Below are positions 23,780 to 49,365 of a stretch of 64,000 bases of DNA, in pieces (positions within the stretch are counted from its first letter, which is position 1; every line of letters begins with the position of its first letter). The stretch covers positions 186,001 to 250,000 of the forward strand of contig PAPM01000037.1 in NCBI GenBank assembly GCA_002708905.1, read 5' to 3'. The translations under genes were made by a program, and so were the position numbers. The notes under the pieces are model-generated. The model saw nothing but the letters and a program-made list of their open reading frames with translations. It ran no database searches and was not told the origin of the DNA. Source of the DNA: Pseudomonadales bacterium (GTDB taxonomy: Bacteria > Pseudomonadota > Gammaproteobacteria > Pseudomonadales > Ketobacteraceae).

Positions 23780-24298
23780 TCACGCCTGAAAAAGTTTCTG
23801 CAAACGTAACGCGGTGATCTTGCGTTGCTCTTCCGCTGCGTTTATGAGTTCTTGCGCGCGGCTGTTGGGCAGGCGTTCCTGCAACAGGGCCAGCATCTCA
23901 CCGGCGGATTTGCCGGTGGCGCAAACGATAAAGATAAAACCGTTTTTCTCCAGGTAGTCCTGGTTGCCGGTGGCGAGTGCCTGCAGGGTGGTTTCGTCCG
24001 CGTCGCTGACGGCTGATTGTTCACCGGAAGCCAGTACTTTGGTGTTGGCGTACTTTGCCCGCAGAGTGTCCACATTACCGATTTGAGGATGGGCGCTGAA
24101 GGCCTCCAGCAAGTTGGCTACGTCCATGGTGGCCCAATGTTTATCGGCCTGCTGCAACACTGCGCTCAGTGTGTCATAGGGCCTCGAAGCCACCATGGCT
24201 TTGATCCAGGCCTCTGCGGCACAACACTGCCGTAGTACGTCCGCGGCATCAGCCTCACTTAACGCATTAAACTGTTGCAGCGTAAGCGCGACACTCAT
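23780..24298 (-). CDS. uraD: OHCU decarboxylase
   Basis: Decarboxylates 2-oxo-4-hydroxy-4-carboxy-5-ureidoimidazoline to S-allantoin. 172 residues, all-helical. Signature parts: 'FNALSEADAADVLRQCC', 'FSAHPQIGNVDTLRAKY' (catalytic His) and 'GFIFIVCATGKSAGEMLA'. ATG at 24296-24298 is chosen because the conserved domain begins there; an open frame extends upstream only within alc. It overlaps the alc stop by one base. Confidence 0.94.
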   Translation of the reverse strand: MSVALTLQQFNALSEADAADVLRQCCAAEAWIKAMVASRPYDTLSAVLQQADKHWATMDVANLLEAFSAHPQIGNVDTLRAKYANTKVLASGEQSAVSDADETTLQALATGNQDYLEKNGFIFIVCATGKSAGEMLALLQERLPNSRAQELINAAEEQRKITALRLQKLFQA

Positions 24299-31446: not shown

Positions 31447-31615
31447 AGCAACGTTCCTTCCGCGGTGCTCTGGCCTGACCTGGCACCTGTTTGTGGTCTG
31501 TGGGACATCCGGTTTCACCCATTAATATATTGATAATAATGCAGTTTTTTAAATCAGCAAGGTAATTCGCCCGTTCTGATCAAGGGCTGCCCAGGGTGGT
31601 TCTGGAATACTGAAA

Positions 31616-31637
31616 AACCTGTCCAATTGGACAGGTT
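31616..31637. promoter_or_regulatory. purine-regulon operator 1 (perfect palindrome)
   Basis: A 22-bp perfect palindrome with core CCTGTCCAATTGGACAGG in the divergent xdhA / ABC transporter region. It fits yTGwCCA-nn-TGGwCAr, close to the E. coli RutR consensus TTGACCA-nn-TGGTCAA. Related sites occur at 31682, 42967, 42996, 45352 and 45391. Confidence 0.72.
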
Positions 31638-31681
31638 ATTGCATATTGTTTGCCAACGCTGGCCGGGCCGTCAACAAAAAC

Positions 31682-31697
31682 CTAACCAAGTGGTCAG
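31682..31697. promoter_or_regulatory. purine-regulon operator 2
   Basis: CTAACCAAGTGGTCAG, a 16-bp near-palindrome with halves CTAACCA and TGGTCAG, very close to the RutR consensus. It ends 18 bp upstream of the ABC ATPase start and may block that promoter; centre-to-centre distance from operator 1 is 63 bp. Confidence 0.55.
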
Positions 31698-31715
31698 AAA
31701 ATTAATCAGGATGGA

Positions 31716-33296
31716 ATGAGTATGCATTCAGACTCAAGACTTGAAGATCGGCCGGTTGCCTCGGCACAGGATGGTTTGCCAATGCCATCCCGCCTGGCCT
31801 TACGGGGCATCACCAAACAGTACCCGGGGTGTCTGGCCAATGATCGGGTGGACCTGGATATTAAACCGGGGGAGATCCATGCTCTGTTGGGGGAAAACGG
31901 TGCCGGGAAGAGCACCCTGATGAAAATAATCTACGGCCTGGTAAAACCGGATCAGGGTCAGCTTTACTGGCGCGGCAGTCCTATGCAGATTGCCGATCCC
32001 GGTCATGCTCGCAGCTTGGGTATTGGTATGGTGTTCCAGCACTTTTCACTGTTTGAAACCCTGAGCGTTACCGAGAATATCGCTTTGGCCCTGGGCACAC
32101 CGGCGCGGGAAATGAAAGCGCTGAGCCAGAAGATTGCCGAGGTGTCGCAGAAATACGGTATGACCCTGAATCCGGATCGACTGGTACACACACTCTCCAT
32201 CGGCGAACGACAGCGGGTGGAGATCGTGCGTTGCCTGGTACAGGACATCAAATTACTGATCCTGGATGAGCCCACTTCTGTGTTGACGCCACAGGAGGTG
32301 GAAACGCTTTTCATAACGTTGCGGCAGCTGGCAAAAGAAGGCTGCAGCATCCTGTTTATCAGCCATAAGCTCAACGAGGTGCAGGCATTGTGTGATGGCG
32401 CCACGGTCTTGCGCGGTGGCAGTGTTTCCGGTAACTGCAATCCGCAGCAAGAGACGCCTGCCAGTATGGCACGTATGATGGTAGGCGATGACACGCCCAT
32501 CGCCACGGAGTATGTAAAGGTGGCGGGCGGTGAGCCCTTCCTGATCGTCAGTGGATTAAGCAAGACCACCCATGATCCATTTGGCACGAACCTGAAGAAC
32601 ATCCAGTTGCAAGTGCGTAGTGGTGAGATTGTGGGTGTGGCCGGTGTGGCGGGCAATGGCCAGGAAGAACTGCTGGCGGCGTTGAGCGGCGAGGAGCCGG
32701 TCGCTGATGGCAGTCGCATCCGGTTATCCGACACTGCTATTGGTCGGTTGCCGCCGGATCAGCGTCGTCGTTTGGGTGTGGCATTTGTACCGGAAGAACG
32801 CCTGGGGCGGGGGGCTGTTCCGAGCATGAGCCTGCGGGAAAACGGCTTGTTGACCGGTTTTCTCCAGGGCTTGGTAAAAAAAGGCATGGTGCAAAGCGAT
32901 AAGACCGAAGCGTTCGCCCGTCAGATCATCGAGCGTTTTAAAGTGAAAACGGCAGGCACTCACAGCCCGGCGAAAAGTCTGTCCGGCGGTAACTTGCAGA
33001 AATTTATTATCGGGCGGGAAATTCTGCAGAATCCCAAATTGCTGATTGCAGCCCATCCCACCTGGGGCGTAGACATTGGTGCCGCGGTTGCCATTCATGA
33101 AGCACTGATTCAATTGCGGGACCAGGGCGCGGCCATTCTGGTGGTGTCGGAAGACATTGATGAACTGTTTCAGATTTCCGATCGCATCTGCGCGATCTGC
33201 CATGGCGAATTATCGCCGTTGAAAGCCACCGCCGATACCACAATCGAACAAGTAGGCCGCTGGATGGCCGGTGACTTTGTGGAGGATGCCGCATGA
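31716..33296 (+). CDS. purine/nucleoside ABC transporter, ATPase with two nucleotide-binding domains
   Basis: Energises uptake across the inner membrane together with the next two permeases and probably the BMP protein at 43055. 526 residues with tandem ABC domains: first with Walker A 'GENGAGKSTLMK', Q-loop 'GMVFQHFSLFETL', signature 'LSIGERQRVEI', Walker B 'LLILDEPTSV'; second with 'VAGVAGNGQEELLAALSG' (degenerate Walker A) and 'LSGGNLQKFIIGRE'. This matches NupA/YufO-like ATPases. AGGATGGA precedes the ATG. The 4-bp overlap with the following permease marks an operon. Confidence 0.92.
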   Translation: MSMHSDSRLEDRPVASAQDGLPMPSRLALRGITKQYPGCLANDRVDLDIKPGEIHALLGENGAGKSTLMKIIYGLVKPDQGQLYWRGSPMQIADPGHARSLGIGMVFQHFSLFETLSVTENIALALGTPAREMKALSQKIAEVSQKYGMTLNPDRLVHTLSIGERQRVEIVRCLVQDIKLLILDEPTSVLTPQEVETLFITLRQLAKEGCSILFISHKLNEVQALCDGATVLRGGSVSGNCNPQQETPASMARMMVGDDTPIATEYVKVAGGEPFLIVSGLSKTTHDPFGTNLKNIQLQVRSGEIVGVAGVAGNGQEELLAALSGEEPVADGSRIRLSDTAIGRLPPDQRRRLGVAFVPEERLGRGAVPSMSLRENGLLTGFLQGLVKKGMVQSDKTEAFARQIIERFKVKTAGTHSPAKSLSGGNLQKFIIGREILQNPKLLIAAHPTWGVDIGAAVAIHEALIQLRDQGAAILVVSEDIDELFQISDRICAICHGELSPLKATADTTIEQVGRWMAGDFVEDAA

Positions 33297-34369
33297 TCAA
33301 GATGGAGCCCCGGCAGGAATCCTCGCCCTGGATGCCCTATGTGTCTCCGCTGCTGGCGGGTGGGTTAACACTGATTACCGGCGCGATTTTGTTTGCCGCT
33401 TTGGGGCAGGATCCTATATTTGCGCTGAAGACCGTGTTGATTACGCCCATCTCCGATGCTTATGGCGTCGGTGAGTTATTTGTGAAGGCAGGCCCCATTC
33501 TGTTATGCGCACTGGGATTGTCAGTGGCCTATCGGGCTAACGTCTGGAATATCGGTGCCGAAGGTCAGTTATTAATGGGTGGTTTGGCCGGCAGTGCGCT
33601 CGCGGTGCAATTCACAGAGAGCGAAGGTTTGTGGTTGCTGCCGGCGGTGCTGTTTTTCGGCATCGTGGCGGGCATGCTTTGGGCGGCGTTGGCGGCGCTG
33701 CTGAAAACCCGATTCAATACCAATGAAATTCTCACCACCATTATGCTCAATTACATCGCATTCAATTTGCTGCAGTACTGTGTGCATGGACCGTTGAAAG
33801 ACCCCCATGGTTTTAATTTTCCTGAGTCCGCCATGTTTGCTGATGCGGCACGGCTGCCCTTGTTGATGGAGGATGCCCGGGTACACCTGGGTATTATCCT
33901 GGCCCTGGTGTCGGCGGTTGCGGTGTGGGTGCTGCTGGGAAAAAGTTTTCTCGGCTACCAGATTCAGGTGTTGGGCCGGGACAGTCGTGCCGCCAAGATG
34001 GCGGGTTTCAAGGAAAAGCGTCTGGTCTGGCTGGCGCTGGTGCTGAGCGGGGGACTGGCGGGATTGGCCGGTGTCGGCGAAGTGGCGGGCCCCATTGGTC
34101 AGCTGGTGCCGCAGATTTCGCCGGGCTACGGTTATGCCGCCATCATCGTGGCGTTTCTGGGGCGCTTGCATCCGGTGGGTGTCACCCTGGCCAGTATCCT
34201 CATGGCTTTACTCTTTATGGGGGGCGAAATGGTGCAGATCGAGCTGAATTTACCATTGGCTTTGGTGGGTATGTTTCAGGGCATGTTGCTGTTTTATCTG
34301 TTGGCCTGTGACGTTTTGATTTTGTATCGCATTCGCTGGGTGAGCAAACCCGCAGTACAAACCGCGTGA
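33293..34369 (+). CDS. ABC transporter permease (YufP/NupB-like)
   Basis: Inner-membrane subunit of 358 residues with about nine hydrophobic helices. It has the BMP-type permease marks 'GLSVAYRANVWNIGAEGQLLMGG' region and 'GRDSRAAKMAGFKEKRLVWLALVLSGGLAGLAG' coupling loop region, in the order of branched-chain/nucleoside permeases (PF02653). Overlaps the ATPase gene by 4 bp and is 9 bp ahead of the second permease. Substrate is inferred as a purine or nucleoside from the locus. Confidence 0.92.
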   Translation: MIKMEPRQESSPWMPYVSPLLAGGLTLITGAILFAALGQDPIFALKTVLITPISDAYGVGELFVKAGPILLCALGLSVAYRANVWNIGAEGQLLMGGLAGSALAVQFTESEGLWLLPAVLFFGIVAGMLWAALAALLKTRFNTNEILTTIMLNYIAFNLLQYCVHGPLKDPHGFNFPESAMFADAARLPLLMEDARVHLGIILALVSAVAVWVLLGKSFLGYQIQVLGRDSRAAKMAGFKEKRLVWLALVLSGGLAGLAGVGEVAGPIGQLVPQISPGYGYAAIIVAFLGRLHPVGVTLASILMALLFMGGEMVQIELNLPLALVGMFQGMLLFYLLACDVLILYRIRWVSKPAVQTA

Positions 34370-34378
34370 GGTTCGGTA

Positions 34379-35305
34379 ATGGATATTGAGTTGGTGAATA
34401 ATGTTTTGCAGGCGGCGGTGCGTACCGGCACTCCGCTGTTATTGGTGGCGCTGGGTGAAACCGTGGCGGAAAAAAGTGGGGTACTGAACCTGGGTCAGGA
34501 AGGCATGCTGTTGGTGGGTGCAGTGATGGGTTTTATTGTTACCCTCACCACCGGCAGTTTAATGCTGGGATTTATGGCCGCGATGTTAGCAGGCGTGCTG
34601 ATGTCCATGCTGTTTGGCGTATTGGTGTTGAAACTGAATGCCAACCAATACGCCACCGGTTTGGCGTTAACCATTTTTGGTACCGGTCTGTCTGCTTTCA
34701 TCGGTGCGGGTTACGTGGGGCAGCCGGTAACGGGTCTGGAACCCATCGCCATACCCTTGCTTAGCGACATTCCCATTGTCGGCAGTGCCCTGTTCAACCA
34801 GGATTTGATGGTGTACCTGTCGTTTGTTGCGACCGCTGTTCTGTTCTGGTTTTTCAAAAGTACCAGGGGCGGTTTGATCGTGAAAGCCGTGGGAGAGAGC
34901 CCGGATTCCGCCAATGCTATCGGCCTGCCGGTACTGCCGACCCGCTATCTGGCGGTGGCCTTTGGTGGTGCCATGGCCGGTGTGGCCGGTGGTTACCTGT
35001 CATTGGCTTACACGCCGCTATGGGCGGAGAATATGAGTGCGGGACGCGGATGGATTGCTCTGGCACTAGTGGTGTTCGCCAGCTGGCGCATAGAGCGTGT
35101 AATGCTGGGTGCTTATCTGTTTGGCTTGGCCAGCATTCTGCATTTGGTGGCGCAGGGACTGGGTTTCTCTTTTTCGCCCAATCTTTTGGCCATGCTGCCT
35201 TACGTGGCGACTATTCTGGTATTGGTGATGCTGTCCAGCAACCCGGCCCGCAACAAACTGTATGCGCCGGTGTCCCTGGGACAGCCATTCTTCAAATCGA
35301 CCTGA
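34379..35305 (+). CDS. ABC transporter permease (YufQ/NupC-like)
   Basis: Second permease, 308 residues, about eight helices. Diagnostic pieces: 'PLLLVALGETVAEKSGVLNLGQEGMLLVGA', broken here as two segments around 'GETVAEKSGVLNLGQEG', and 'SPDSANAIGLPVLPTRYLAV' in the coupling loop. It completes a heterodimeric membrane unit with the preceding gene. The typical partner is a BMP/PnrA-like binding protein, encoded 7.7 kb downstream at 43055 under a similar operator pair. Confidence 0.92.
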   Translation: MDIELVNNVLQAAVRTGTPLLLVALGETVAEKSGVLNLGQEGMLLVGAVMGFIVTLTTGSLMLGFMAAMLAGVLMSMLFGVLVLKLNANQYATGLALTIFGTGLSAFIGAGYVGQPVTGLEPIAIPLLSDIPIVGSALFNQDLMVYLSFVATAVLFWFFKSTRGGLIVKAVGESPDSANAIGLPVLPTRYLAVAFGGAMAGVAGGYLSLAYTPLWAENMSAGRGWIALALVVFASWRIERVMLGAYLFGLASILHLVAQGLGFSFSPNLLAMLPYVATILVLVMLSSNPARNKLYAPVSLGQPFFKST

Positions 35306-35329
35306 TGAACAAATGAAAACAGAAACAAC

Positions 35330-36672
35330 ATGAACAGAATCTGGATTAAAAATCCGTTGGCCATACTAGCCGAAGAAAATGCCGGCGGCGGCCTGGTGAT
35401 CGAACAGGATCGTATTGTGGAACTGGTGCCGGGAGGCAAGGAGCCCAGTCTTCCCTGCGCACAGGTTTTCGATGCCAGCGAGCATGTGGTAACGCCGGGA
35501 TTGGTGAATTGTCATCATCACTTTTATCAAACCCTGACCCGAGCGTTGCCTGCAGCGCTGAACCAGGAACTGTTCCCCTGGTTGCAAAGCCTGTATCCGG
35601 TTTGGGCCGGGCTGACGCCGGAAATGATCTCACTTTCCAGCAGGCTGGCGCTGGCGGAATTGATGCTGTCCGGTTGTACCACAGCGTCGGATCATCATTA
35701 TCTTTTTCCCCGGGGATTGGAGCAGGCCATCGATCAGCAGGTGGAGGCGGCACAGCAGTTGGGTATTCGGGTAGTGTTGACCCGGGGTTCCATGAGTCTG
35801 GGGCAGGCCGATGGTGGCCTGCCGCCGCAAACCGTGGTGCAAAAGGAATCGGATATCATCGCAGACAGCGAGCGCCTGATTAAAACCCATCATCAAAGTG
35901 GTACCGGTGCCATGGTGCAAATCGCATTGGCACCCTGTTCGCCGTTTTCGGTCACGCCGGATATCATGCGGGCAAGTGCCGAACTAGCGCAACTGTATGG
36001 AGTGGGCCTGCATACCCATCTGGCTGAAACCCTCGACGAAGAAACCTTCTGTGAGCAACAGTTTGGCATGCATACGGTGGACTATCTGGAATCCGTTGGT
36101 TGGTTGCGTCCCGGCACCTGGTTGGCCCATGGTATTCATTTTAATGATGATGAAATTCAACGTCTGGGTGCCGCGAGCATTGGAGTCAGTCATTGTCCCT
36201 GTTCCAATATGGTGTTGGCCTCCGGCATTTGCCGCACCCTGGAACTGGAAGCCGCCGGTTGTCATGTGGGGCTGGGGTGGATGGTTCCGCGTCCAACGAT
36301 GGCTCCAATATGATTGGTGAAGTGCGGCAGGCCATGCTGCTGCAACGCCTGCGCTATGGTGCGGCTCAGGTGAGTCATCTTGACGCCTGGCGTTGGGCCA
36401 CTGAAGGCGGGGCCCGCGTTCTGGGGCGTACGGATATCGGTAAACTGGCGGGGGGTCAACAGGCGGACCTGGCCCTGTTCAAACTGGATGAGCTGCGGTT
36501 CTCCGGCAGTCATGAACCACTGGCGGCGTTGTTGCTGTGCGGCGCCCAGCGTGCCGATTGGGTGATGGTGAATGGACAGTGGACGGTTGAGGAAGGGGCA
36601 ATTCCCGGTTTGGACCTGGAACAGTTAATGGCGGATCATTGGCAGGCAGCACGTCGTTTGGCAGCGCCCTGA
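35330..36672 (+). pseudogene. 8-oxoguanine deaminase, disrupted by a one-base frameshift
   Basis: Amidohydrolase that would deaminate 8-oxoguanine directly to urate. The first frame (35330 onward) carries 'VNCHHHFYQTLTRALPAALN', 'LFPWLQSLYPVWAGLTPEMI', 'CTTASDHHYLFP', 'GLHTHLAETLDEE' and 'SHCPCSNMVLASGICRT'. At the GGGG run 36274-36277 the frame breaks: adding one G restores 'GLGVDGSASNDGSNMIGEVR', which is found in the next frame and continues to 36672. Total length, about 448 residues, is normal for the family. Either a genuine recent inactivation, phase variation at a G-run, or a sequencing error. Between the ABC permease and DUF3445 genes in one transcription unit. Confidence 0.82.
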
Positions 36673-36693
36673 AATTTATGAAAAGATAGAGGC

Positions 36694-37557
36694 ATGTCTA
36701 TACGAAACCCCGATCCCTTTGCGTTTCTGTCCGGCGATTCCCTGTTGCGAATGGGATTGACACCAATCTCCGATCAGGAATGGGTGGCACCTTTTTCCAG
36801 GGCTGAGTACGAAACGTTTTCTCAGCACAAACGGTCAGTGCTTGAACGAAATCCGAAGGCCTTGTTGGTTGATGGCGCGGCGGATGTGGCGCTGGCTGAG
36901 TTTTATGTCGCGTTGAAACAGCATCTGCAGCGGGATCACCCCGGCGCAGTGCTGAGTTGCAGTCTGGACTTTCATGATCCGGAAGCAGCGACACCAGCGG
37001 CCTTACTCAGAAAGATGACACTATGGGTGCCCGATGATATCTGTATTCTGCAGGCTGAAGACGGCGGGGAATACCAACTTACCGCCGTCAGCGTACTCAG
37101 TCCCAGTGCGTGGAATCCCGTTGCAAAGTTCCGGCGCTCCTTATCTGACATTCACCAGCCGATTCCAAAATTCAAGCAACGCTTGATGCCGTCCGTAGAT
37201 CGCTTTTTCCATCATATAAAATCGGGAAGGCCTGTGGTGAGGTACAACTGGGGAATCCAGCAGGGTGATCGCCTGGACCGCATGCCGGGAACAGAGGTTG
37301 TCTCAGAAGACTGCTTGTACTACCGCAGCGAACGGCAAACTCTGTTGCGCCTCCCGGGCTCGCAAGCGGTAGTGTTTCTGATTCGGACACAATTATGGGA
37401 ATTAGCCAAGCTGGACGAAATGAGCGGGGAAGAAAATACCTTGCAGCGTTTGCTGAATCACATTAGCGGACTGTCACAGGAAGAGCGCGACTATAAAGGA
37501 TTGACCGGGAAGAGGTTGACCGGATTACAGTGCGCGCTCGAACGTCTTAGGAATTAA
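36694..37557 (+). CDS. DUF3445 / haem-dependent oxidative N-demethylase-like protein
   Basis: A 287-residue protein of the DUF3445 family, related to the alpha subunit of the haem-dependent oxidative N-demethylase that acts on dimethylamine. Conserved segments: 'AVSVLSPSAWNPVAKFRRSL', 'IHQPIPKFKQRL', 'RYNWGIQQGDRL', 'YYRSERQTLLRLPGSQAVVF'. It follows the 8-oxoguanine deaminase gene by 21 bp and so belongs to the purine transport unit. The gene for partner subunits of the known amine enzyme is not present. A role on methylated purines is a hypothesis only. Confidence 0.75.
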   Translation: MSIRNPDPFAFLSGDSLLRMGLTPISDQEWVAPFSRAEYETFSQHKRSVLERNPKALLVDGAADVALAEFYVALKQHLQRDHPGAVLSCSLDFHDPEAATPAALLRKMTLWVPDDICILQAEDGGEYQLTAVSVLSPSAWNPVAKFRRSLSDIHQPIPKFKQRLMPSVDRFFHHIKSGRPVVRYNWGIQQGDRLDRMPGTEVVSEDCLYYRSERQTLLRLPGSQAVVFLIRTQLWELAKLDEMSGEENTLQRLLNHISGLSQEERDYKGLTGKRLTGLQCALERLRN

Positions 37558-37573
37558 TGCAACCACTCGGCGC

Positions 37574-37780
37574 TTAACCTGGAAGCTGTTTTTGGTGCCA
37601 TTTGGAACAGTAATGGGCGCGCTCCAGCCCGATCTCAATCAATTCGTCCAACAGGCGACGGTACTGATCCATATTACGGTGAACCATGCCGCGCCGTTCA
37701 AGTTCACTCAGTCGTTGCTGCACTTGTGCATGTCTGTCTGTAAATACTTCCAAGCCTGAACGAAATTCCGACGTTTCCAT
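37574..37780 (-). CDS. small hypothetical protein
   Basis: 68 residues, charged and helical ('VQQRLSELERRGM', 'DQYRRLLDELIEIG'), Cys and His near the C-terminus ('ERAHYCSKWHQKQ'). The ATG at 37778-37780 has AGAGG nine bases ahead; longer starts at 37807 or further have no ribosome site. No family recognised. It ends 16 bp from the convergent DUF3445 gene. Confidence 0.5.
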   Translation of the reverse strand: METSEFRSGLEVFTDRHAQVQQRLSELERRGMVHRNMDQYRRLLDELIEIGLERAHYCSKWHQKQLPG

Positions 37781-38118
37781 ATGCTTCAACCTCTGTTTAC
37801 AGCTCATGAAACCAGTCTCACAAGCAAAGTTTTTAATCGCTCTTCGTGTTGCTGTCTTTTGTACTCCTAACGGATATCGCAAACAATGCGGCAGATCAGG
37901 GTAAACAGGCCAATCACAGGGGATCGATGCTTGGGTGTTTGGTTAAATATGAGTCAGTTTAGCGGCAAGGTTCAATGAAAACAGCTGTTTAGGAGGGCAG
38001 GTGTTGGCTGAAAAAATGGGGGTGATTTTTTTATTACGCTTTGTAAGGCGTGTGTTTCAATTGGTAATTATGACAGTGTTGTTTCAGTTGGGTTGCAGTT
38101 GTGGTGTCCAAAGCGTCG
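37781..38118. other. gene-free stretch
   Basis: 338 bp between the small hypothetical gene and the hybrid kinase gene, A/T-richer on its right half with a T-run near 38030. I see no open frame with a ribosome site, no operator of the purine type and no terminator with a T-run on the correct side. Confidence 0.5.
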
Positions 38119-41100
38119 TTAGAGCGAATTGATAGCATTTTGATGCTTGCTGAATTCTTCCATCAACATGCGAAGTTCCTGCTGGATGCCGCGACCGAAT
38201 TGTTCAAGTGCCTTTTGGTTGCTGGGCTGGTTGCTGGTTTGGCTGCCAGATTCAACTTTTACTTCAGTCTCAATTAACTGACACAACTCCTGCAACCGTA
38301 TGGCACCGATATTGCCGGCTGAACCCTTGATGGAATGCGCCAGCTCCTGCACCTGTTGCTTTTCCCCCGACTGAATGGCGGACTGTAATTGCCTGACTTT
38401 GCCTGGGGTGATCTCGGAAAAAATGCGCAGCATTTCCTGCATGCGCTCTTCTTTCCGGCGTACTCTTTTGAATAATGCTTCCTGATCCCAAATCGGCAGT
38501 CTGGATAGTGCAAGAACCGGTGAGTCGTCCCGTTTGCCCTCCGAGGGCATATCGCCGTCCTGTTTCAACCAGTAGGCAAGTTTGGGAAACAGTTCCTCAG
38601 GGTTCAATGGCTTGGTAATGTAGTCGTCCATCCCGGCCAACAGACAGCGATCCCGATCACCGGCCATCGCGCTCGCCGTCATGGCGACAATGGGGATGTG
38701 TTTCGCAGTTTCGCCGGCCGCGCCGCAGCGAATTTCTTCAGTGGCAGTGTAGCCATCCATCACCGGCATTTGGCAATCCATCAGAACCAGATCGTACTGT
38801 TTGGAACGCAGTGCATTGATGGCGTCGCGGCCATTCTCGGCTGTGTCAATGTCGGAACCAAAGTCTTCGATTAATCCGATGGCCACCTGCTGGTTGATGG
38901 CGTTGTCGTCCACAATCAGGATACGACAGTCTTTCAAATCCAGTGATGCGGTTGTGATACCCGTGTTCAGCAGATCGGATGACAAACCGGGTGTTGTGTT
39001 GCCCGCAATGGAATCCATACTGAAGTGCTCAATCAGTCCCGCTTGCTGTAACAGCCGGGCAAGTTTGAAGGGGGTGATGGGCTTGGTCAGATGAAAAACA
39101 TTATCCTGCTGGCAGTTGGCCGTGGTGTTGCCGTCGGTATGTGTCATTATGATTCCGATGGGGGTTATGCGGTTTTGAGTTTGCAGTGGTTCCGCCAGAG
39201 ACTCGTCCACAATCATCAGATCCGGTTTCTGTTGCTCCAGTTTCAGCGGGGATGACATGCCCGGGTTTGACGTGGCCGTTTCCACCTGTGTGGCATGCCA
39301 GGCTTCCAGTTGATCGGCGATGTTATAGGCCAGCGGTTTGGAAGGCGCCAACACTTGAAAGCATTTGCCCGAAAGATCAATGTTGGAAAAGTAATTCGGC
39401 TGCTCCTCCATTTTTTGTTGTCTGATAGTACAGGTGAAAGTGCTTCCCACACCTTTGGAACTTTCCACCTTGATGTCGCCACCCATGAGCTTGCAGAGCT
39501 GTTGGGTGATGGATAAGCCCAGCCCGGTACCACCAAAGCGGCGGGTAACGCTGCTGTCTTCCTGGGAAAATGCTTCGAAAATGGAATCCAGTTTATCCAT
39601 GGCGATCCCGACGCCGGTGTCCTTGACCTGAATGGTAAGTTCCACTGCATTGTCGTGACGGGCTTTGGTGGCAACATTGACACCGATATGACCTGAGTGG
39701 GTGAATTTGATCGCGTTCCCCAACAGGTTGGTCATGATCTGGCGCAGGCGGGCGGCATCGCCGATCAAGCCGGGAATATCAATGTCCAGCGTGTCCAGAA
39801 TCAGATCGATGCCTTTTTCCTGCGCCCGCAGGGACATGGACAGCATGATCTCAGACATCACCTGCATCACATCATAGGGGGAGTTGTCGAACTCCAGTTT
39901 GCCGGCTTCGATTTTTGACAGGTCGAGCACATCGTTGATCAGAGACGCCAATGCCTGGGCGCTGGTTTCCGCCATGTTAAGGTAGTGGTTGCGTTGTTCC
40001 TCCGTCTGGGCTTTGCGCAGCATATTGTGCATGCCGATGATACCGTTAAGGGGGGTGCGGATTTCGTGGCTGACGTTGGCAATAAAGTTGCTCTTGGTGC
40101 GGCTGGCTGACAGGGCTTCGTTGCGGGCTTCTTCCAACTCATGAATGCGCTCCTGAATCTGCTTTTCCAGCGAGGCATTGATGTTTTTGATTTCGTCTTC
40201 CGCTGCTACCTGAGAGGAAATGTCACGCACAATCGCCGCAACCCCCATGACCTGGTGGGCATCCAGCATAATGGGCGACAGCGCCATGGAAACATGAATC
40301 TGGGTCTGATTGCGTTTGGTGAGCAACAGCCGAATGGGCTCCTGGTATTTCCCCATGGCCACTTGCTTCAGTGCTGCAGCTACTTCTTCTTTTTTATCTT
40401 CTATCACCAGCAGGTTTTCAAACAACTGGCCGATGGCTTGGCGGGAAGAATAACCTAAAATATCCTGGGCCGCGGTATTCCAACTGGTGACGTGGCCGGA
40501 GGGTGACACGCTGATGATGGCATCCGACGATCCCTCAATAATGGCTTCGAACTGGGCCTGGGCTTCGCTGAGTCGAGTGGCTTTGGTGATGTTGGCCTGG
40601 TAGATCAGCAGAAACACAATGACCAGCAACAACACGCCACCGGCCAGTAACAGTAGCTGGGTGCTTTGCCGAAAGAGTTCTTCCTCCACGGCTTCGCTGG
40701 GTAACAACAAAACCAAACGCATGAAGCGACCACTGTCTACATTGGTGATCGGAATAAAAGTGTTCTTGCTGTAGTACTCAATGCCGGACTCCGTTTCTTG
40801 CAGGCGCTCAAGCCCCGGTTCAGATTCGGGTAAATTCTCATAGTAATCCTGCCAGCTGGCTTTGGTGCCCAGCTCTTGCTGGAAAGCCAGACTGGCGTTG
40901 GGGTGGGTGATAAAGCCGTCCTTCGGATTCAACAGGATCAACTGCATGGGACTGGGAAGATCATCGAGCATTTCCCGGATGACTTTTTTGGCGTCAATGT
41001 TCAAAACAACCATACCAAACAGCTGGTGATGCGCGTCGTAAACCGGCATACCCACGCGATAGGTGGGTTGGTAGGGGACGACAATCTTGCCGTATTCGCG

Positions 41101-41634
41101 ATTGAGGTTGATTTCGGATACAAAAGACTGTCCAGGAGGGATCTGGCTAATGGCCTTGAAGTAGTCGCGGTTACCCTTTCGTTGCAGGTTGGCAGGATGG
41201 GTTGCATTAATTCCCCCGGTTTGGCGGTCAATCCGCACCAGTTCCATGCCATTGTCGGCCAGCCCGATATAGCGCGCCTGGGAAACGGAAGGATTGTTTT
41301 CAAGAAAGGCCTTGAATATGGTTTCCAGTCTTACTTTCCACTGGGAAAGCTGAGTGCCGTCATAGGGGTCTACGCCGTTATTCTGGGAGGCCCTGACAAT
41401 GCCCTGAACGGGGGGAGTGGAGTAAAGAAAGCGTACTTTCAGGCGGCTTTCTTCCAGCTCACGGTTGATAATGTTCTCGCGCAGGCTCAGTTGCTGTTTG
41501 AGCTCAACGGCTTTGTTTTCCAGAATGTGCTTGCGGGTGTTTTCGTGCAGGAACCAACCTGATGCAAGGGTCAGCAACAGCAGAATTGGGATAACGGCCT
41601 TTAACGGAATCCAGCTATCATGAATCATGTTCAC
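38119..41634 (-). CDS. hybrid sensor histidine kinase with Cache, PAS, REC and Hpt domains
   Basis: Membrane phosphorelay kinase of 1171 residues. Order: membrane helix (about 11-28), periplasmic double-Cache sensor (about 35-315), second helix (about 325-347), PAS (about 360-480), coiled coil, HisKA with 'NVSHEIRTPLNGIIGM', HATPase ('DAARLRQIMTNLLGNAIKF', 'VKDTGVGIAMDKL', 'GGTGLGLSITQQL'), a degenerate receiver-like segment, a receiver with 'ILIVDDNAINQQVA' and 'LVLMDCQMPVMDGYTA', and C-terminal Hpt with 'LAHSIKGSAGNIGA'. The layout is BarA-like, but with a Cache ligand sensor. No response regulator is adjacent. Signal unknown. Confidence 0.92.
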   Translation of the reverse strand: MNMIHDSWIPLKAVIPILLLLTLASGWFLHENTRKHILENKAVELKQQLSLRENIINRELEESRLKVRFLYSTPPVQGIVRASQNNGVDPYDGTQLSQWKVRLETIFKAFLENNPSVSQARYIGLADNGMELVRIDRQTGGINATHPANLQRKGNRDYFKAISQIPPGQSFVSEINLNREYGKIVVPYQPTYRVGMPVYDAHHQLFGMVVLNIDAKKVIREMLDDLPSPMQLILLNPKDGFITHPNASLAFQQELGTKASWQDYYENLPESEPGLERLQETESGIEYYSKNTFIPITNVDSGRFMRLVLLLPSEAVEEELFRQSTQLLLLAGGVLLLVIVFLLIYQANITKATRLSEAQAQFEAIIEGSSDAIISVSPSGHVTSWNTAAQDILGYSSRQAIGQLFENLLVIEDKKEEVAAALKQVAMGKYQEPIRLLLTKRNQTQIHVSMALSPIMLDAHQVMGVAAIVRDISSQVAAEDEIKNINASLEKQIQERIHELEEARNEALSASRTKSNFIANVSHEIRTPLNGIIGMHNMLRKAQTEEQRNHYLNMAETSAQALASLINDVLDLSKIEAGKLEFDNSPYDVMQVMSEIMLSMSLRAQEKGIDLILDTLDIDIPGLIGDAARLRQIMTNLLGNAIKFTHSGHIGVNVATKARHDNAVELTIQVKDTGVGIAMDKLDSIFEAFSQEDSSVTRRFGGTGLGLSITQQLCKLMGGDIKVESSKGVGSTFTCTIRQQKMEEQPNYFSNIDLSGKCFQVLAPSKPLAYNIADQLEAWHATQVETATSNPGMSSPLKLEQQKPDLMIVDESLAEPLQTQNRITPIGIIMTHTDGNTTANCQQDNVFHLTKPITPFKLARLLQQAGLIEHFSMDSIAGNTTPGLSSDLLNTGITTASLDLKDCRILIVDDNAINQQVAIGLIEDFGSDIDTAENGRDAINALRSKQYDLVLMDCQMPVMDGYTATEEIRCGAAGETAKHIPIVAMTASAMAGDRDRCLLAGMDDYITKPLNPEELFPKLAYWLKQDGDMPSEGKRDDSPVLALSRLPIWDQEALFKRVRRKEERMQEMLRIFSEITPGKVRQLQSAIQSGEKQQVQELAHSIKGSAGNIGAIRLQELCQLIETEVKVESGSQTSNQPSNQKALEQFGRGIQQELRMLMEEFSKHQNAINSL

Positions 41635-41778
41635 AGCCCTGTGACTGATGTCATTTCAGAATCTTTAGCGCGTTGTGTGGCAGTGGGGGGCCGCCGGATA
41701 CGTTCTGTCCGGTCCTTTGAATTATAGAAGAGCTGTCATCATTTAGCCCCTCGAACCGAAAAAATCCCATTAAGTTTT

Positions 41779-42000
41779 TTAGTCAATGTCCAACAACCAT
41801 TGAATCAGGAGTTTGGCCACGAAACCGATCATGCCCAGCGTCAGTACCAGAAACAGCACAAAGGTGCCGAAGCGACCGGCTTTCGATTCCCGCGCCAATT
41901 GGGCCACGATGAACACCATATAAATCATGAAGGCGGCCAGGCCAATGGTCAGGCCGAAGGAGGCGATTTCCTGTTCGCTGAAGCCCAATACCGTGTTCAT
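41779..42000 (-). CDS. DUF2788 family small membrane protein
   Basis: 73 residues with two transmembrane helices: 'FGLTIGLAAFMIYMVFIVAQ' and 'FVLFLVLTLGMIGFVAKLL' joined by the conserved loop 'LARESKAGRFG'. This is the DUF2788 pattern. The ATG (41998-42000) overlaps the stop of the DUF2189 gene by 4 bp, so the two are co-translated. Function unknown. Confidence 0.86.
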   Translation of the reverse strand: MNTVLGFSEQEIASFGLTIGLAAFMIYMVFIVAQLARESKAGRFGTFVLFLVLTLGMIGFVAKLLIQWLLDID

Positions 42001-42800
42001 CGGATATCCCGGGCCCTGGGGGGCAAGTGATCGGCACGCACTGCATCCCGATAGGCATGCCAGCTGGCGTGTCCCAGTACCGGAACCACGATAATGCTGC
42101 CGGCCAGTGCCAGCAGCCCAAGCAGGGAGCTGCCCATGATCAGAAGTGCCCACAACGCCATGGGTAAGGGGTTCTGCATCACCACTTTCCAGCTGACAAG
42201 CACCGCGTCGAGAATCGGAATCTTGCGGTCCAGCAGCAATGGCAGCGTGACGACGGTGCTGGCATACACCGGGGCTGCCAGGGTGACGCCCATTACCCAC
42301 CAGATTTCAAACAGGTGATTATCCCTGGCTAATACCACGTGGCGTAAAAAGTCCTCGGGCCGATGGATGGCATGTTCGGAAAAAAGTGTGATGAAGGCAG
42401 CAGAGGTAAGTACCCAGCCGGTGCCGGACAGGCACAGCAGCAGGCCAAAACGGACCAGGCGCCAGTCATGGTGGGGTTTGCCGCGCCAGCTCCACCAGGT
42501 ACGAAACACCAGCAGAAGAGTGGCCGGCTTATCCTGTTCCAACGCCTGGCTCACGGCATATAGCCCTACGGCGACCACCGGTGCCACTGCCAGAAACCCC
42601 GTGAATGCCCCCGCTAGCAGCCAGAATTTGTCGTAGGCTATCAGCAACAGCAGGAAGCCGAAGGCGGAGACACCAACCCCATGCAGTAACCCGATCAGGG
42701 GTGCCCGCTTGAAGTCCTGCCAGCCTTTCTGCAGCCACTGCCACGGGGCATTAAGCGTCAGTGATCGTATTTCTACCTCAGATACGGCGGTGGATGTCAT
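41997..42800 (-). CDS. DUF2189 family membrane protein
   Basis: A 267-residue inner-membrane protein with six hydrophobic helices. The N-terminal 'APWQWLQKGWQDFKRAPLIG' and 'GFLAVAPVVAVGLYAVSQAL' are DUF2189 marks; the family is annotated as possibly linked to cytochrome oxidase but has no proven role. Overlaps the DUF2788 gene, the usual partner in this short operon. 254 bp of regulatory DNA separates it from the purine binding-protein gene. Confidence 0.86.
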   Translation of the reverse strand: MTSTAVSEVEIRSLTLNAPWQWLQKGWQDFKRAPLIGLLHGVGVSAFGFLLLLIAYDKFWLLAGAFTGFLAVAPVVAVGLYAVSQALEQDKPATLLLVFRTWWSWRGKPHHDWRLVRFGLLLCLSGTGWVLTSAAFITLFSEHAIHRPEDFLRHVVLARDNHLFEIWWVMGVTLAAPVYASTVVTLPLLLDRKIPILDAVLVSWKVVMQNPLPMALWALLIMGSSLLGLLALAGSIIVVPVLGHASWHAYRDAVRADHLPPRARDIR

Positions 42801-42966
42801 TGTGAGGATCCCTTATCAAAGTCTTCTTAAGCCCGCTACGCTTGTTGTTTTAGTCTACTGTAATCCGCCGAATCCGCACCAAGTTAATGCCTGGCTTCCT
42901 GCTGTGCTCTGCTTGTGTACGGTTTCTATCATGGCCTAGAAGTTCAAAGCTATGCAAATCAAGGAG

Positions 42967-42982
42967 TTGATTAGTTGGTCAA
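42967..42982. promoter_or_regulatory. purine-regulon operator 3 (half-degenerate)
   Basis: TTGATTAGTTGGTCAA. The right half TGGTCAA matches the RutR half-site exactly, the left half TTGATTA only in part. It is 35 bp centre-to-centre upstream of operator 4. Confidence 0.45.
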
Positions 42983-42995
42983 GTTTTTGCTTTAT

Positions 42996-43023
42996 GAAAA
43001 CCTGTCCAAATAGACAGGTTTTC
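42996..43023. promoter_or_regulatory. purine-regulon operator 4
   Basis: Perfect 11-bp arms GAAAACCTGTC and GACAGGTTTTC around a 6-bp centre; core CTGTCCAAATAGACAG. The same arms as operator 1. Ends 31 bp before the start of the BMP binding-protein gene, so it would overlap that promoter or leader. Confidence 0.68.
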
Positions 43024-43054
43024 AATCAACCATTAAAACTGGAGCATTCTCAGT

Positions 43055-44143
43055 ATGAACTTTAAGGGGATAACGCATCATCTTGTGGGCCTGATGGCCA
43101 TCATGGCCGCACTGATGGGCATGTCGACAGCACTGGCGGAAGAACCGTTCAAAGTGGGCTTTGTGTATGTGGGCCCCATTGGTGATCACGGTTGGAGCTA
43201 CCAGCATGACCAAAGCCGACTGGCACTGGAAAAGCATTTTGGTGACAAGGTGAAAACCACCTACGTGGAAAACGTGCCGGAAGGAGCGGATGCGGAACGG
43301 GTCATTCGCAATCTGGCCAAGTCCGGTAATAAAGTCATCTTTACCACGTCGTTTGGTTTTATGAACCCTACGGCAAAAGTGGCCAAGCAGTTTCCCAAGG
43401 TCACCTTCCTGCATGCTACCGGCTACAAGCGCAGTAAAAACCTGGGAACTTACATCTCCAAGACCTATGAAGGTCGTTACATTGCAGGCTATGTGGCGGC
43501 AAAGATGACCAAGAGCAACAAGATCGGTTATATCGCTTCTTTCCCCATTCCGGAAGTGATTCGCGACATCAACGCCGTGCAACTGGCGCTGAACAAATAC
43601 AATCCGGAAGCGGAACTGAAGGTGGTGTGGGTCAACACCTGGTTCGATCCCGGTAAGGAAGCAGACGCCGCCAATGCCATGATGGATCAGGGCGTGGATG
43701 TGATTCTGCAGCACACTGACAGCCCTGCGGCCATGCAGGCGGCAGAACGCCGCGGCAAGTACGCGGTGGGTCAGGCTTCGGATATGTCCCGCTTTGGCCC
43801 CAACGCTCACTTGATGTCGGTGGTGGATGATTGGGCCTGGTATACGATTCATACGGTGCAATCGGTGATGGACGGCACGTTCAAGTCGGAGGATTTCTGG
43901 GGTGGCATGAAAGAAGACATGATTCAGGTACCGGGCTTTGGTCCGGCGGTACCGGAGGATGTGAAGAAGCATGCAGAAGAGTTGATTGCCGGTATCAAGG
44001 ATGGTTCATTTCATCCGTTCACCGGCCCCATCAAGGATCAATCGGGAAAGATTACCGTACCTGAGGGTAAGGTGTTAAACGATCAGGAACTGGCAGGCAT
44101 GAATTATTATGTGGAAGGGGTGGAAGGCACCATTCCCAAGTAA
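43055..44143 (+). CDS. BMP/PnrA-like purine nucleoside-binding protein
   Basis: Periplasmic solute-binding protein of an ABC importer. 362 residues with signal peptide (1-28, ending STALA), then the BMP family core: 'KVGFVYVGPIGDHGWSYQHD', 'VIFTTSFGFMNPTAKVAKQ', 'YEGRYIAGYVAAKMTKSNK', 'VWVNTWFDPGKEADAANAMM'. It is the missing partner of the ATPase/permease operon at 31716-35305 and is controlled by a like pair of operators. First gene of a unit with the 2OG oxygenase. Confidence 0.92.
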   Translation: MNFKGITHHLVGLMAIMAALMGMSTALAEEPFKVGFVYVGPIGDHGWSYQHDQSRLALEKHFGDKVKTTYVENVPEGADAERVIRNLAKSGNKVIFTTSFGFMNPTAKVAKQFPKVTFLHATGYKRSKNLGTYISKTYEGRYIAGYVAAKMTKSNKIGYIASFPIPEVIRDINAVQLALNKYNPEAELKVVWVNTWFDPGKEADAANAMMDQGVDVILQHTDSPAAMQAAERRGKYAVGQASDMSRFGPNAHLMSVVDDWAWYTIHTVQSVMDGTFKSEDFWGGMKEDMIQVPGFGPAVPEDVKKHAEELIAGIKDGSFHPFTGPIKDQSGKITVPEGKVLNDQELAGMNYYVEGVEGTIPK

Positions 44144-44160
44144 GTATCGAGCCATTTAAG

Positions 44161-44208
44161 TGCCGGGCCATGAAGGTCCGGCATGCTACGTTTTACCGGC
44201 CGGGTAAA
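44161..44208 (+). promoter_or_regulatory. two intercistronic inverted repeats
   Basis: TGCCGGGCC (44161-44169) pairs with GGTCCGGCA (44175-44183), a 9-bp stem with one G-U pair. TTTACC (44192-44197) pairs with GGTAAA (44203-44208), and this second repeat covers the likely ribosome site of the oxygenase gene. No T-run follows the first stem. Likely mRNA-stabilising and attenuating structures that keep the binding protein in excess over the enzyme. Confidence 0.4.
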
Positions 44209-44213
44209 CAAAC

Positions 44214-45176
44214 ATGAATACAGCAAGCAACATTCCGGTTATATCCCTGGCGGACCTGCACAGCGAAGATCGGCGCCGACGACAGTCGGTAGCCGATGCC
44301 GTGGGTCAAGCCTGTCGTGAAATCGGGTTCTTCTATGTGGTGGATCATGGCGTACCGAATTCGTTGCGCAACAAGGTATTCGCTCAGTCCAAACGTTTTT
44401 TTGATTTGCCCGTTGAGCGCAAGCAAATCCTTTCAATCAAACAATCGCGCCACAATCGCGGCTACATTGCGTTGGCGGATGAGCGTTTGAATCCGCAGCA
44501 GGGGGCCGATCAGAAAGAAGCGTTTAATATCGGTGTGGCCCTGCCGTTGGACCATCCGGATGTGGTGTCCGGCAAACCGTTTCGCGGCGTGAATTACTGG
44601 CCCGACCTCAGTGACTGGAAAGCCGATATGCTGGCGTATTTTGACGCCTGCCAACAACTGGGACGTTTGATTCACCGGGCCTTCAGCCTGGATCTTGGTT
44701 TGCCGGAAAATACCTTTGACCGGCATTTGATTGAACCCATCGCTACTCTGCGACTGTTGCATTACCCTGCCGCGAAAGAGCAAGCATCAGAGCGACCGGA
44801 TGCCGGCGCAGGTACCCATACGGATTACGGCAACATTACTCTGCTGGCCACCGATGGGGTTGCCGGGCTGCAGGTCTCCAATCGTAATGGCGAGTGGATG
44901 GATGCACCGTCCATTCCTGATGCCTTCGTTTGCAACATCGGTGACTGTCTGATGCGTTGGACCAACGATCTGTATGTGTCTACGCCCCACCGGGTGCAGG
45001 CGCCCACACGGGAACGCTATTCCATAGCCTTTTTTCTGGAAGTGGATCCGGATGCAGTGGTGGACAGTCGCAACCTGTTTCCCGACCAGCCGGCGAAGTA
45101 TCCGCCTGTCACCTGTGCGGAGTATCTGGCGAGCCGGCTCAATGCCACCTATGAGTATCGCCAGCCTGCACCCTGA
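44214..45176 (+). CDS. 2-oxoglutarate/Fe(II) oxygenase, isopenicillin N synthase family
   Basis: Non-haem iron dioxygenase of 320 residues. N-terminal DIOX_N region ('PVISLADLHSEDRRRRQSVA', 'REIGFFYVVDHGVP'), then the jelly-roll with iron ligands H202, D204 ('THTDYGN') and H259 ('TPHRV') and the 2-oxoglutarate site R268-x-S270. Complete catalytic set, so probably active. Cytosolic. It is cotranscribed with the purine binding protein and ends in a terminator; its substrate is unknown, but a purine derivative is suggested by location. Confidence 0.88.
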   Translation: MNTASNIPVISLADLHSEDRRRRQSVADAVGQACREIGFFYVVDHGVPNSLRNKVFAQSKRFFDLPVERKQILSIKQSRHNRGYIALADERLNPQQGADQKEAFNIGVALPLDHPDVVSGKPFRGVNYWPDLSDWKADMLAYFDACQQLGRLIHRAFSLDLGLPENTFDRHLIEPIATLRLLHYPAAKEQASERPDAGAGTHTDYGNITLLATDGVAGLQVSNRNGEWMDAPSIPDAFVCNIGDCLMRWTNDLYVSTPHRVQAPTRERYSIAFFLEVDPDAVVDSRNLFPDQPAKYPPVTCAEYLASRLNATYEYRQPAP

Positions 45177-45197
45177 TCATTCATCTGCTTTTCTCAG

Positions 45198-45222
45198 GGC
45201 GCCAAATGTAGGCGCCTTTTTT
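45198..45222 (+). terminator. Rho-independent terminator
   Basis: GGCGCC stem, seven-base loop AAATGTA, GGCGCC, then six T. Located 22 bp after the oxygenase stop codon; ends the binding protein/oxygenase unit. Confidence 0.85.
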
Positions 45223-45351
45223 ATTTCTGTTGATCTGCATTCCGACAAACTTTGGAAATGCAGCTAGATTGATAGAGAGGCTGATTTGTAACTGCCTAAT
45301 TTTACAACAATTATGTGGCTGAAATTAAAAGTGCCGGTGGCATCTTGAGAA

Positions 45352-45373
45352 AACCTGTCCATTTGGCCAAGTT
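45352..45373. promoter_or_regulatory. purine-regulon operator 5
   Basis: Core CTGTCCATTTGGCCAA within a 22-bp imperfect palindrome, same layout as operators 1 and 4. It is 39 bp centre-to-centre from operator 6, upstream of the porin gene. Confidence 0.62.
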
Positions 45374-45390
45374 TTTGCTTTTAGGGTTGC

Positions 45391-45412
45391 AACCTGACCA
45401 TTTGGACAACTT
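45391..45412. promoter_or_regulatory. purine-regulon operator 6
   Basis: Core CTGACCATTTGGACAA, the closest of the set to the RutR consensus (one mismatch per half-site). It ends 40 bp before the porin start codon. Confidence 0.65.
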
Positions 45413-45452
45413 TTAAATTCACACAACCTGAAACCTCAAGGGGATACATAGC

Positions 45453-46181
45453 ATGTTTAAGCAGTCTTTTGCCGCCATGGGCGGGGCACTGGTTCTGGCG
45501 TCTGGTTTGATTTCCAGTCATGCCCACGCGGAAATGTACTGGAGCACCTTCAGTCTCAGCTACTTGAAAGGGGATCATTACAAGGTGGGCGACAAATCGC
45601 GGGAGGTGCTCACGGTGGAGCACGCCAGTGGCCACAACTGGGGCGATAACTTTTTCTTCCTGGATCATCTGAAGTCTGATGACGGCACGGTTTCCAACTA
45701 TGGTGAGCTGGCTCCACGCTTGAGCCTGTCCTACCTTTCCAACAGTGAACTCAGTGCCGGCATTATCAAAGATGTGTTTATCGCCACTACCTGGGAAATG
45801 GGGCAGGGTTTCGATAACTATCTTTACGGTTTGGGGTTGGCGCTGGATCTGCCGGGCTTTAAATATTTTGGCGTGAACGTTTATAAAGCCAATAACGGTG
45901 TGTGGGAGGACGATGAACAGTTGACCCTGACCTGGGGCGTGCCTTTCACTCTGGCCGGTGCCGAGTTTCTTTATGACGGCTTCCTGGATTACTCCACAGA
46001 ATCCGACACCAATGCAAAAGAGATGAACTTCACCTCCCAGCTCAAATGGAACGCTGGTAAATTGGTTGATAGCAAATCGCCTTTCTACATTGGTATTGAA
46101 TATGCTTACTGGAATAACAAATTTGGTATCGACGGTGTTGATGAAAGGAATCCCAACCTACTCGTGAAATGGCATTTCTAA
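45453..46181 (+). CDS. Tsx/OmpK-like nucleoside-specific outer-membrane channel
   Basis: Outer-membrane beta-barrel of 242 residues. Signal peptide 1-26 (ends SHAHA), mature N-terminus 'EMYWSTFSLSYLKGDHY', regular aromatic-bounded strands, and terminal Phe ('PNLLVKWHF') needed for barrel assembly. The pattern follows the Channel_Tsx family (PF03502), which admits nucleosides and nucleobases. It precedes the NCS2 permease by 15 bp and has its own operator pair, giving an outer-to-inner membrane route. Confidence 0.87.
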   Translation: MFKQSFAAMGGALVLASGLISSHAHAEMYWSTFSLSYLKGDHYKVGDKSREVLTVEHASGHNWGDNFFFLDHLKSDDGTVSNYGELAPRLSLSYLSNSELSAGIIKDVFIATTWEMGQGFDNYLYGLGLALDLPGFKYFGVNVYKANNGVWEDDEQLTLTWGVPFTLAGAEFLYDGFLDYSTESDTNAKEMNFTSQLKWNAGKLVDSKSPFYIGIEYAYWNNKFGIDGVDERNPNLLVKWHF

Positions 46182-49318: not shown

Positions 49319-49365
49319 GGCACACCTCTCATCACACAGCTGCACTATACCGCTATGAGTTTATG

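Follow-up and report, generated by a model that had tools for sequence, protein, structure and literature searches.

The 64,000-nucleotide stretch of a Pseudomonadales genome analysed here (the window; contig PAPM01000037.1, positions 186,001 to 250,000, genome size 5.42 Mb) carries a purine uptake and catabolism gene cluster between 24 and 50 kb, and transcription units of this cluster are preceded by six palindromes arranged in three pairs. Judging from sequence comparisons, it is most likely that these belong to a real, conserved purine regulon under a RutR-like repressor with composite sigma-54 operators. Our specific proposal, to which we give a probability of about three in four, is that the TetR-type regulator encoded at 49426..50076 (+ strand; hereafter the 49426 protein), which would represent a purine branch of RutR, controls sigma-54 promoters by ligand-released repression. 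The sites, their confinement and conservation, their fusion to the sigma-54 geometry GG-N10-GC, the homology of the regulator to RutR and the residues of its nucleobase clamp can be read directly from the sequences.

Six operators in front of purine units

All six palindromes proposed by the initial annotation are present within a few bases of where it had placed them, before the divergent xdhA and ABC transporter genes, before bmp and before tsx-ncs2. Their 16-base cores lie at 31619-31634, 31682-31697, 42967-42982, 43002-43017, 45355-45370 and 45394-45409, giving centre-to-centre spacings of 63, 35 and 39 within the three pairs. Operator 1, a 24-mer (31615..31638), contains the perfect 22-base palindrome that had been reported, its half-sites agreeing at 11 of 12 positions with the mismatch outermost. 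The core form first given, yTGwCCA-nn-TGGwCAr, is exact in two of the six sites only; the better half-site from the six-site alignment is AAACYTGWCCAW. Operator 2 (31678..31701, centre 31689.5) is weak in this genome, and operator 3 (42963..42986, centre 42974.5) has a left half that is degenerate here and better in the congeners G002 and G003; half-site identity is 6/12 in both operators, and both keep the same spacing in the two congeners. Operators 4 (42998..43021), 5 (45351..45374) and 6 (45390..45413) complete the set. On leave-one-out scoring in the window, four sites rank 2-4, far above background, and the two weak operators rank 7th and 8th, under the best background.

A sequence-only model of the six sites, with the best 150 of 2268 first-look candidates scored, finds only these six in the whole genome at an expectation value (E) below 0.05, the next match having E = 1.63. 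The extended motif is thus not scattered, and all six sites lie upstream of purine uptake or catabolism units. It is this extended site, and not the bare core, that stands out, because the core is not rare: TGWCCANNTGGWCA occurs at three places in the genome (two here and one at C34:33545) against four for the reversed control, and we rejected the bare 14-base core as genome-wide evidence on that count. Since the six sites are also the training set of the model that recovers them, independent support for them matters. All six sites recur in congener G002. The three pairs are likewise complete in G003, even though its cluster is split and some 59-66 kb separate the tsx unit from the remaining two; the pair spacings are 63/35/39 and 63/35/38, respectively, and in alignments with the congeners the operators form conserved islands within diverged intergenic DNA.

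Operators fused to sigma-54-type promoters

In each pair, the upstream operator merges with the -24 element of a sigma-54-type promoter, a fusion that the initial annotation overlooked. All three + strand promoters take the TGG of the operator right half, followed by exactly ten bases and a GC within a TTGCW-type -12 element, and in the footprint alignments a TTGC box common to all three pairs follows the upstream operator. The promoter of the ABC operon (TGGACAGGTTATTGCAT, 31628..31644) has its GG at 31629-31630, overlapped by operator 1, and its GC at 31641-31642; in the promoters of bmp (TGGTCAAGTTTTTGCTT, 42976..42992) and tsx-ncs2 (TGGCCAAGTTTTTGCTT, 45364..45380), the -24 element is the right half of operators 3 and 5. 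Placed 12 bases after the GC, the predicted starts fall at about 31654, 43002 and 45390; operators 4 and 6 cover the predicted bmp and tsx starts, and operator 2 occupies roughly +25 to +48 relative to the predicted abc start. On the - strand, a promoter facing xdhA (TGGCAAACAATATGCA, 31640..31655) shares the GC at 31641-31642 with the + strand promoter, and operator 1 would therefore cover the predicted xdhA transcript start, near 31629. The block 31639-31659, which also encodes the xdhA-facing promoter, is identical in this genome, G002 and G003. The shared-GC pattern occurs at this place in all three genomes and nowhere in loci L049, L089 and L046; taken alone it is not rare, because chance-like matches occur elsewhere in L041, L072 and L128.

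The fusion extends well beyond these promoters. Among 115 operators upstream of target genes, a count that overlaps the 38 sites used to train a broader matrix, the GG faces the gene in 104. A GC follows at exactly N10 in 84 of these 104 gene-facing operators, compared with 4/54 facing away, and this GC lies outside the 28-column matrix by which the operators were selected. Other distances from a gene-facing GG are less frequent (none at N8, N9 or N12; 2 at N7, 5 at N11, 12 at N15 and 14 at N16). By gene, GG-N10-GC is found for 32/36 abcA, 19/21 bmp, 26/27 ncs2, 7/19 tsx and 0/1 xdhA operators, the low tsx figure arising partly because downstream members of pairs are counted.

So strong a sigma-54 geometry could mean that the TGGNCA half is kept solely as a -24 element and that the palindrome is incidental. 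We consider this highly improbable, as it is already contradicted by sites selected on the right half and -12 element alone: 80 of 82 such sites upstream of targets match at least 4/6 left-arm positions, versus 7/30 elsewhere. The downstream members of the three window pairs, moreover, lack a GC at N10, and those centred at 43009.5 and 45401.5 score high as palindromes. Of the seven exceptions, three come from Marinobacterium and Nitrincola pyd loci, meaning that certain pyrimidine paralogues employ the fusion as well. Two precede the Pseudomonas tetR gene by 50-60 bases, one stands on the opposite strand roughly 200 bases ahead of the G021 xdhA gene, and the last is a bmp-like element close to where L126 ends. 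Palindromes of pyd loci fused to GG-N10-GC are those at L219:8754 and at L228:6882 and 7125.

A compound pattern joining operator and sigma-54 -12 element has four matches in the genome, three of them at these promoters, and its reversed control has none. It is present in 13 of the 18 genomes tried, in 8 of the 13 at known purine promoters and in the other five (G042-G046) at different places, among them pyd loci in two of the five; G001, G004 and G005, genomes without the TetR, give no match. The genome encodes an RpoN (TIGR02395, 494.5 bits, over the cut-off). Sigma-70 promoters over the operators were rejected, a consensus scan of 31000-50200 giving 12 matches against a shuffle mean of 14.1.

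Candidate activator sites accompany two of the three promoter regions. A provisional NtrC-like palindrome without mismatch to GCACN7GTGC (GCACGAGCACAGTGC, 31353..31367) lies inside xdhA, an equally exact site being placed at a similar distance in G002 and G003, and another, with one mismatch and equally provisional, lies at 42876..42890, about 99 bases upstream of operator 3; upstream of tsx there is none at up to one mismatch. Across the set, palindromes with 0-1 mismatch were found upstream of 68/83 targets compared with 42/255 control starts.

In the mechanism we propose, whose binder, repression, ligand, activator and start sites we infer, a dimer of the 49426 protein would bind the AAACYTGWCCA-nn-TGGWCARGTTT palindromes before xdhA/ABC, bmp and tsx-ncs2. 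Because the operator right half is the -24 element, the bound repressor should exclude sigma-54 RNA polymerase, with a second operator, in this genus, at or just past the predicted start. The repressor would release DNA once its nucleobase clamp holds a ligand of purine type (xanthine, a related base or perhaps uracil). The promoter would then be fired by an activator of the enhancer-binding class, probably NtrC when nitrogen is limiting. The outcome would be an AND gate that requires both the presence of substrate and a signal of need, with xdhA and the ABC operon fired divergently from overlapping sigma-54 promoters that have one -12 GC in common.

A purine-type relative of RutR and its proposed regulon across species

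The suggestion that the TetR protein encoded at 49426 is a relative of RutR is borne out by profile, sequence and fold. It matches TetR_C_3 (PF08362) with 178.1 bits against a gathering threshold of 25 and TetR_N with 46.4 against 24, and its score of 182.1 bits for the RutR equivalog TIGR03613 is half the cut-off of 368. Its nearest solved structures, both by sequence and by the fold of its AlphaFold model (pLDDT 83.4), are those of Escherichia coli RutR, and RutR chains make up the eight best Foldseek matches of the model. No other close RutR relative is encoded in the genome, the next TetR match being 27% identical over 167 residues.

We searched for homologues across 84,980 species, each represented by a single genome, and examined the best 80 of 463 relatives. 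These 80 loci are mostly from Pseudomonas, with 52-58% identity, and also include Marinobacterium, Amphritea, Nitrincola, Oceanobacter and Cellvibrionaceae. Nine of ten such genomes encode two or three RutR-like proteins scoring at least 145 bits, and one encodes a single protein. Their neighbours, read by eye and without a family library at 15 fetched loci and six others, divide these proteins into three types, namely pyd, gcl/uricase and the purine type of the window; L171 and L184 were typed by analogy, and several purine-type rows (e.g. L080, L084, L100) show only the 8-oxoguanine deaminase marker. A tree of 41 rows places the 18 of window type on one side of a branch with support 97/95, leaving E. 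coli RutR and all other types outside this clade. Neither the pyd nor the gcl label forms a single clade, and long branches leave the deeper joins unsure. The 49426 protein thus belongs to a clade apart from the pyd-type RutR-like rows, in line with the earlier idea of a RutR relative repurposed for purines.

The contacts of E. coli RutR with uracil are W77, Y97 (via water), W167, Q171 and Q179 of the other subunit, as given in PMC10891134. The equivalents in the 49426 protein are W80, Y100, W170, Q174 and Q182, and all five are kept in 18/18 window-type rows and 6/6 pyd-type rows, whereas W77 is replaced by L or I in 9/9 rows of the gcl type (seven labelled and two joining them in the tree). 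Because these residues are conserved, the 49426 protein should hold a flat base, with xanthine as a first guess and uracil possible. The six-membered ring of xanthine resembles uracil, and since it presents this uracil-like ring the clamp does not discriminate between the two; that it fits uracil as well as xanthine counts against a specifically purine ligand. The protein might accordingly still sense uracil or thymine, free pyrimidine signalling nucleic-acid breakdown and opening purine uptake with no sensing of purines at all. The clamp conservation favours this, as does the AlphaFold model, whose closest matches are uracil- and dihydrouracil-bound RutR. It nevertheless seems to us clearly the less probable option, given that all six genome sites precede purine or nucleoside genes, that the clade is separate from the pyd-type rows and that it has class-specific positions (F107, S124, F133 and Y137 in the 49426 protein). 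As to a rut or pyd link, no other extended site occurs in the genome at E < 0.05 and the neighbours of the sites are purine genes, the rut and pyd genes elsewhere not having been searched.

To follow the regulon across species, we scored positions -350 to +10 of gene starts with the six-site matrix at a position weight matrix (PWM) score of at least 15, projecting the starts of relatives from tblastn matches and leaving xdhC out of the rows. In counts that include the window's own matrix-training sites, and that credit sites between divergent genes to both, a site precedes the genes that come first in their units (abcA 20/36, bmp 11/21, ncs2 26/37, tsx 12/16, xdhA 6/7), and no site was found at this score before the internal genes abcP1 (0/33), abcP2 (0/33) and xdhB (0/8). 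The oguD starts have a site in 1/68 cases, and random 360-base segments in 1.8%. The purine regulon that had been postulated is therefore recovered in the sense that sites precede the first genes of purine units and not internal genes. Of 38 genomes including this one, 8 have a motif match at E ≤ 0.1. At least two distinct sites at E < 0.01 occur only in this genome (G000), G002 and G003, all with a close TetR; in the basal relatives G020 and G023, where the homologue is present among ABC, BMP and Tsx genes, one or two sites of weaker score occur.

A regulator other than the 49426 protein might bind the palindromes, leaving the TetR as a bystander. Its own gene is without visible autoregulation, and isolated matches occur in genomes without a close homologue, both as such a bystander would lead one to expect. 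We regard this explanation as unlikely, in view of the RutR-type core, of the recurrent adjacency of tetR to the target genes (in Pseudomonas, Marinobacterium, Amphritea, Nitrincola and Cellvibrionaceae loci), and of a near-identical core beside the own genes of the pyd-type paralogues of Marinobacterium and Nitrincola. Three of three genomes with the ABC-BMP operon and no close TetR homologue also lack the sites: in G015 and G028, with operons 46-69% identical, no site scores above 10 within 20 kb, and in G037, with a remote operon (31-37%), none scores above 11 within 20 kb. This gives the link between TetR and motif modest support. The congeners without the TetR (G001, G004 and G005) were dropped from this comparison, being uninformative because bmp is missing too.

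Several observations weigh against the proposed TetR-controlled regulon. At PWM 15, a site is absent from 16/36 abcA, 10/21 bmp, 11/37 ncs2 and 4/16 tsx starts (a broader matrix finds more sites than the six-site matrix at this score), and many of the scored rows are related Pseudomonas, so that the loci are not mutually independent. None of 88 tetR starts has a site of its own at PWM 15, on which ground autoregulation was rejected; a partial element lies 50-60 bases before tetR in Pseudomonas L093 and L134. A single match occurs in G018 (E = 0.0093), with weaker ones in G013 and G025, all without a close TetR homologue. The presence/absence comparison covers three genomes, one of them remote, with G027 outside it at a contig end. 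The sigma-54 fusion is weak in G020 and G023 (1/5 abcA-upstream sites), which the compound pattern also misses. The best NtrC-family match in the genome, at 424 bits, falls under the curated 558.6, and since no protein of the genome reaches this cut-off the activator may be other than NtrC. In nine further genomes, some matches of the broader model fall outside the loci with identified genes, so that the regulon is delimited only within this genus. Isolated good palindromes in L074 (G018), L075 (G025) and L076 (G013) may be due to chance or to another regulator.

The cooperative binding of two sites put forward in the initial annotation does not survive as a general rule: the spacings of 63, 35, 38-39 and 44 share no helical phase, and most Pseudomonas promoters have a single site at the score used. 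A reservation is that a spacing of 38-39 recurs in L083, L127, L149 and L154 of other genera, mainly before tsx, so that pair geometry may matter beyond this genus, notably before tsx. These facts also bear on the possibility that the protein activates instead of repressing, or that two sites form a cooperative repression complex, to which the conservation of the pairs within the genus, the recurrent spacing and the de-repression of carAB by RutR in E. coli (PMC10891134) lend something. Sites on the -24 element and on the predicted start are in the wrong place for an activator of a sigma-54 promoter, and we think either variant improbable beside repression released by a ligand.

Gene content and relation to known systems

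The cluster as a whole spans purine breakdown and uptake. On the - strand lie alc (allantoicase-like, 24298..25320) and xdhB (xanthine dehydrogenase large subunit, 27632..29980), both open reading frames (ORFs) with putative assignments from sequence, together with allB (allantoinase, 25363..26748; TIGR03178, 568.3 bits) and xdhA (xanthine dehydrogenase small subunit, 29977..31446; TIGR02963, 599.9 bits). The xdhA ORF opens at 31518, and a comparison of start candidates makes GTG 31446 its likely start. On the + strand, abcA, the ATPase of a BMP-type ABC uptake system (31716..33296), is followed by the permease ORFs abcP1 (33293..34369) and abcP2 (34379..35305), putatively assigned from sequence and position, and by a shortened 8-oxoguanine deaminase-like ORF (35330..36313; NF006055, 507.4 bits, cut-off 532). 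Because this frame stops at 36313 after family residues 2-316 and an overlapping frame (36193-36672) then follows, the region 35330-36672 looks frameshifted, whether through misassembly or a genuine lesion. The purine genes adjoin a gene for a haem-dependent oxidative N-demethylase alpha-like protein (PF11927, 36694-37557), which is 57% conserved in G002, below most of its neighbours. Further along the + strand, bmp (BMP/PnrA-like substrate-binding protein, PF02608, 43055..44143) is followed by a 2OG-Fe(II) oxygenase (PF14226, PF03171; 44214..45176). The same arrangement is seen in several Pseudomonas and Amphritea loci, and this recurrent order suggests an unrecognised oxidation step tied to purines or nucleosides. 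The last unit consists of the Tsx-like nucleoside porin gene tsx (+ strand, 45453..46181; PF03502, 43.3 bits) and ncs2, encoding a xanthine permease of the PbuX subfamily (+ strand, 46197..47579; TIGR03173, 442.2 bits, over the cut-off). An adenine deaminase gene (- strand, 47576..49345; TIGR01178, 619.7 bits, over the cut-off) separates it from the regulator.

The closest known system is E. coli RutR (TIGR03613; PDB 3loc, 4jyk and 6z1b), whose operator core is TTGACCAnnTGGTCAA. It has in common with the 49426 protein the TetR_C_3 fold, at 37-38% identity in the fold alignment, the operator core and the uracil clamp. The two differ in their targets (rut and carAB there, purine genes here) and in promoter layout, since here an extended palindrome is fused to the -24 element, whereas in K-12 the centre of the RutR-like box before rutA, which has three mismatches to the consensus, precedes the GG of TGGCATCCGCTTTGCA by some 74 bases, and NtrC-like sites occur still farther upstream. 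PMC10891134 and PMC8743547 describe rutA as being under NtrC/sigma-54 control, and the latter places the rutA-rutR spacer among RpoN targets. Joint control by RutR and sigma-54 is therefore already known, and what differs here is the fused element and the purine targets. RutR regulons are treated as pyrimidine catabolism in PMC5343134. Among the papers listed from the open-access literature searched, none dealt with a RutR-type purine regulon or with a -24 element that forms part of a RutR operator, the nearest being a remark that PA1504 is under study (PMC12694930); RegPrecise, supplements and subscription papers were outside the scope of that search.

Among related regulators, the pyd-type regulators of Pseudomonas and Oceanospirillaceae share the family and the clamp and, in Marinobacterium and Nitrincola, a similar core operator that is also fused to GG-N10-GC, but they sit on separate branches beside dihydropyrimidine dehydrogenase- and dihydropyrimidinase-like genes (identified by eye). 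The gcl/uricase type likewise belongs to the RutR-like family and stands beside downstream purine and glyoxylate genes; it differs in its replaced W77, in its separate branch and in palindromes that tend to CTGACC-n4-AGNCAG. Loci L217, L222, L226, L227, L230 and L231 are of this type, most with palindromes of that kind and L217 with none. These paralogues no longer have the first tryptophan of the clamp and probably respond to another ligand; they are perhaps PA1504-like, PA1504 being remarked upon as uninvestigated in PMC12694930. The same paper describes UgmR (PA1520), a urate-responsive GntR-family regulator of allantoin genes in P. aeruginosa, which resembles the repressor proposed here in being a purine-catabolism repressor relieved by a purine (urate) and differs in protein family and target set.

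On balance, we think it probable that RutR-like proteins have diverged, in Pseudomonas and related bacteria, into three regulators or more, serving pyrimidine, glyoxylate/urate and purine-uptake functions, and that the purine type and some of the pyrimidine type use a composite of half-site and -24 element in which about 30 bases would read both substrate and nitrogen, doubled in this genus and with one copy driving the divergent xdhA and ABC units through a single -12 dinucleotide. If so, purine scavenging would be joined to sigma-54 control down to individual base pairs, in a promoter layout that differs from that of E. coli rut, and a widespread, hitherto unassigned TetR regulator of Pseudomonas and Oceanospirillaceae would gain a testable identity.

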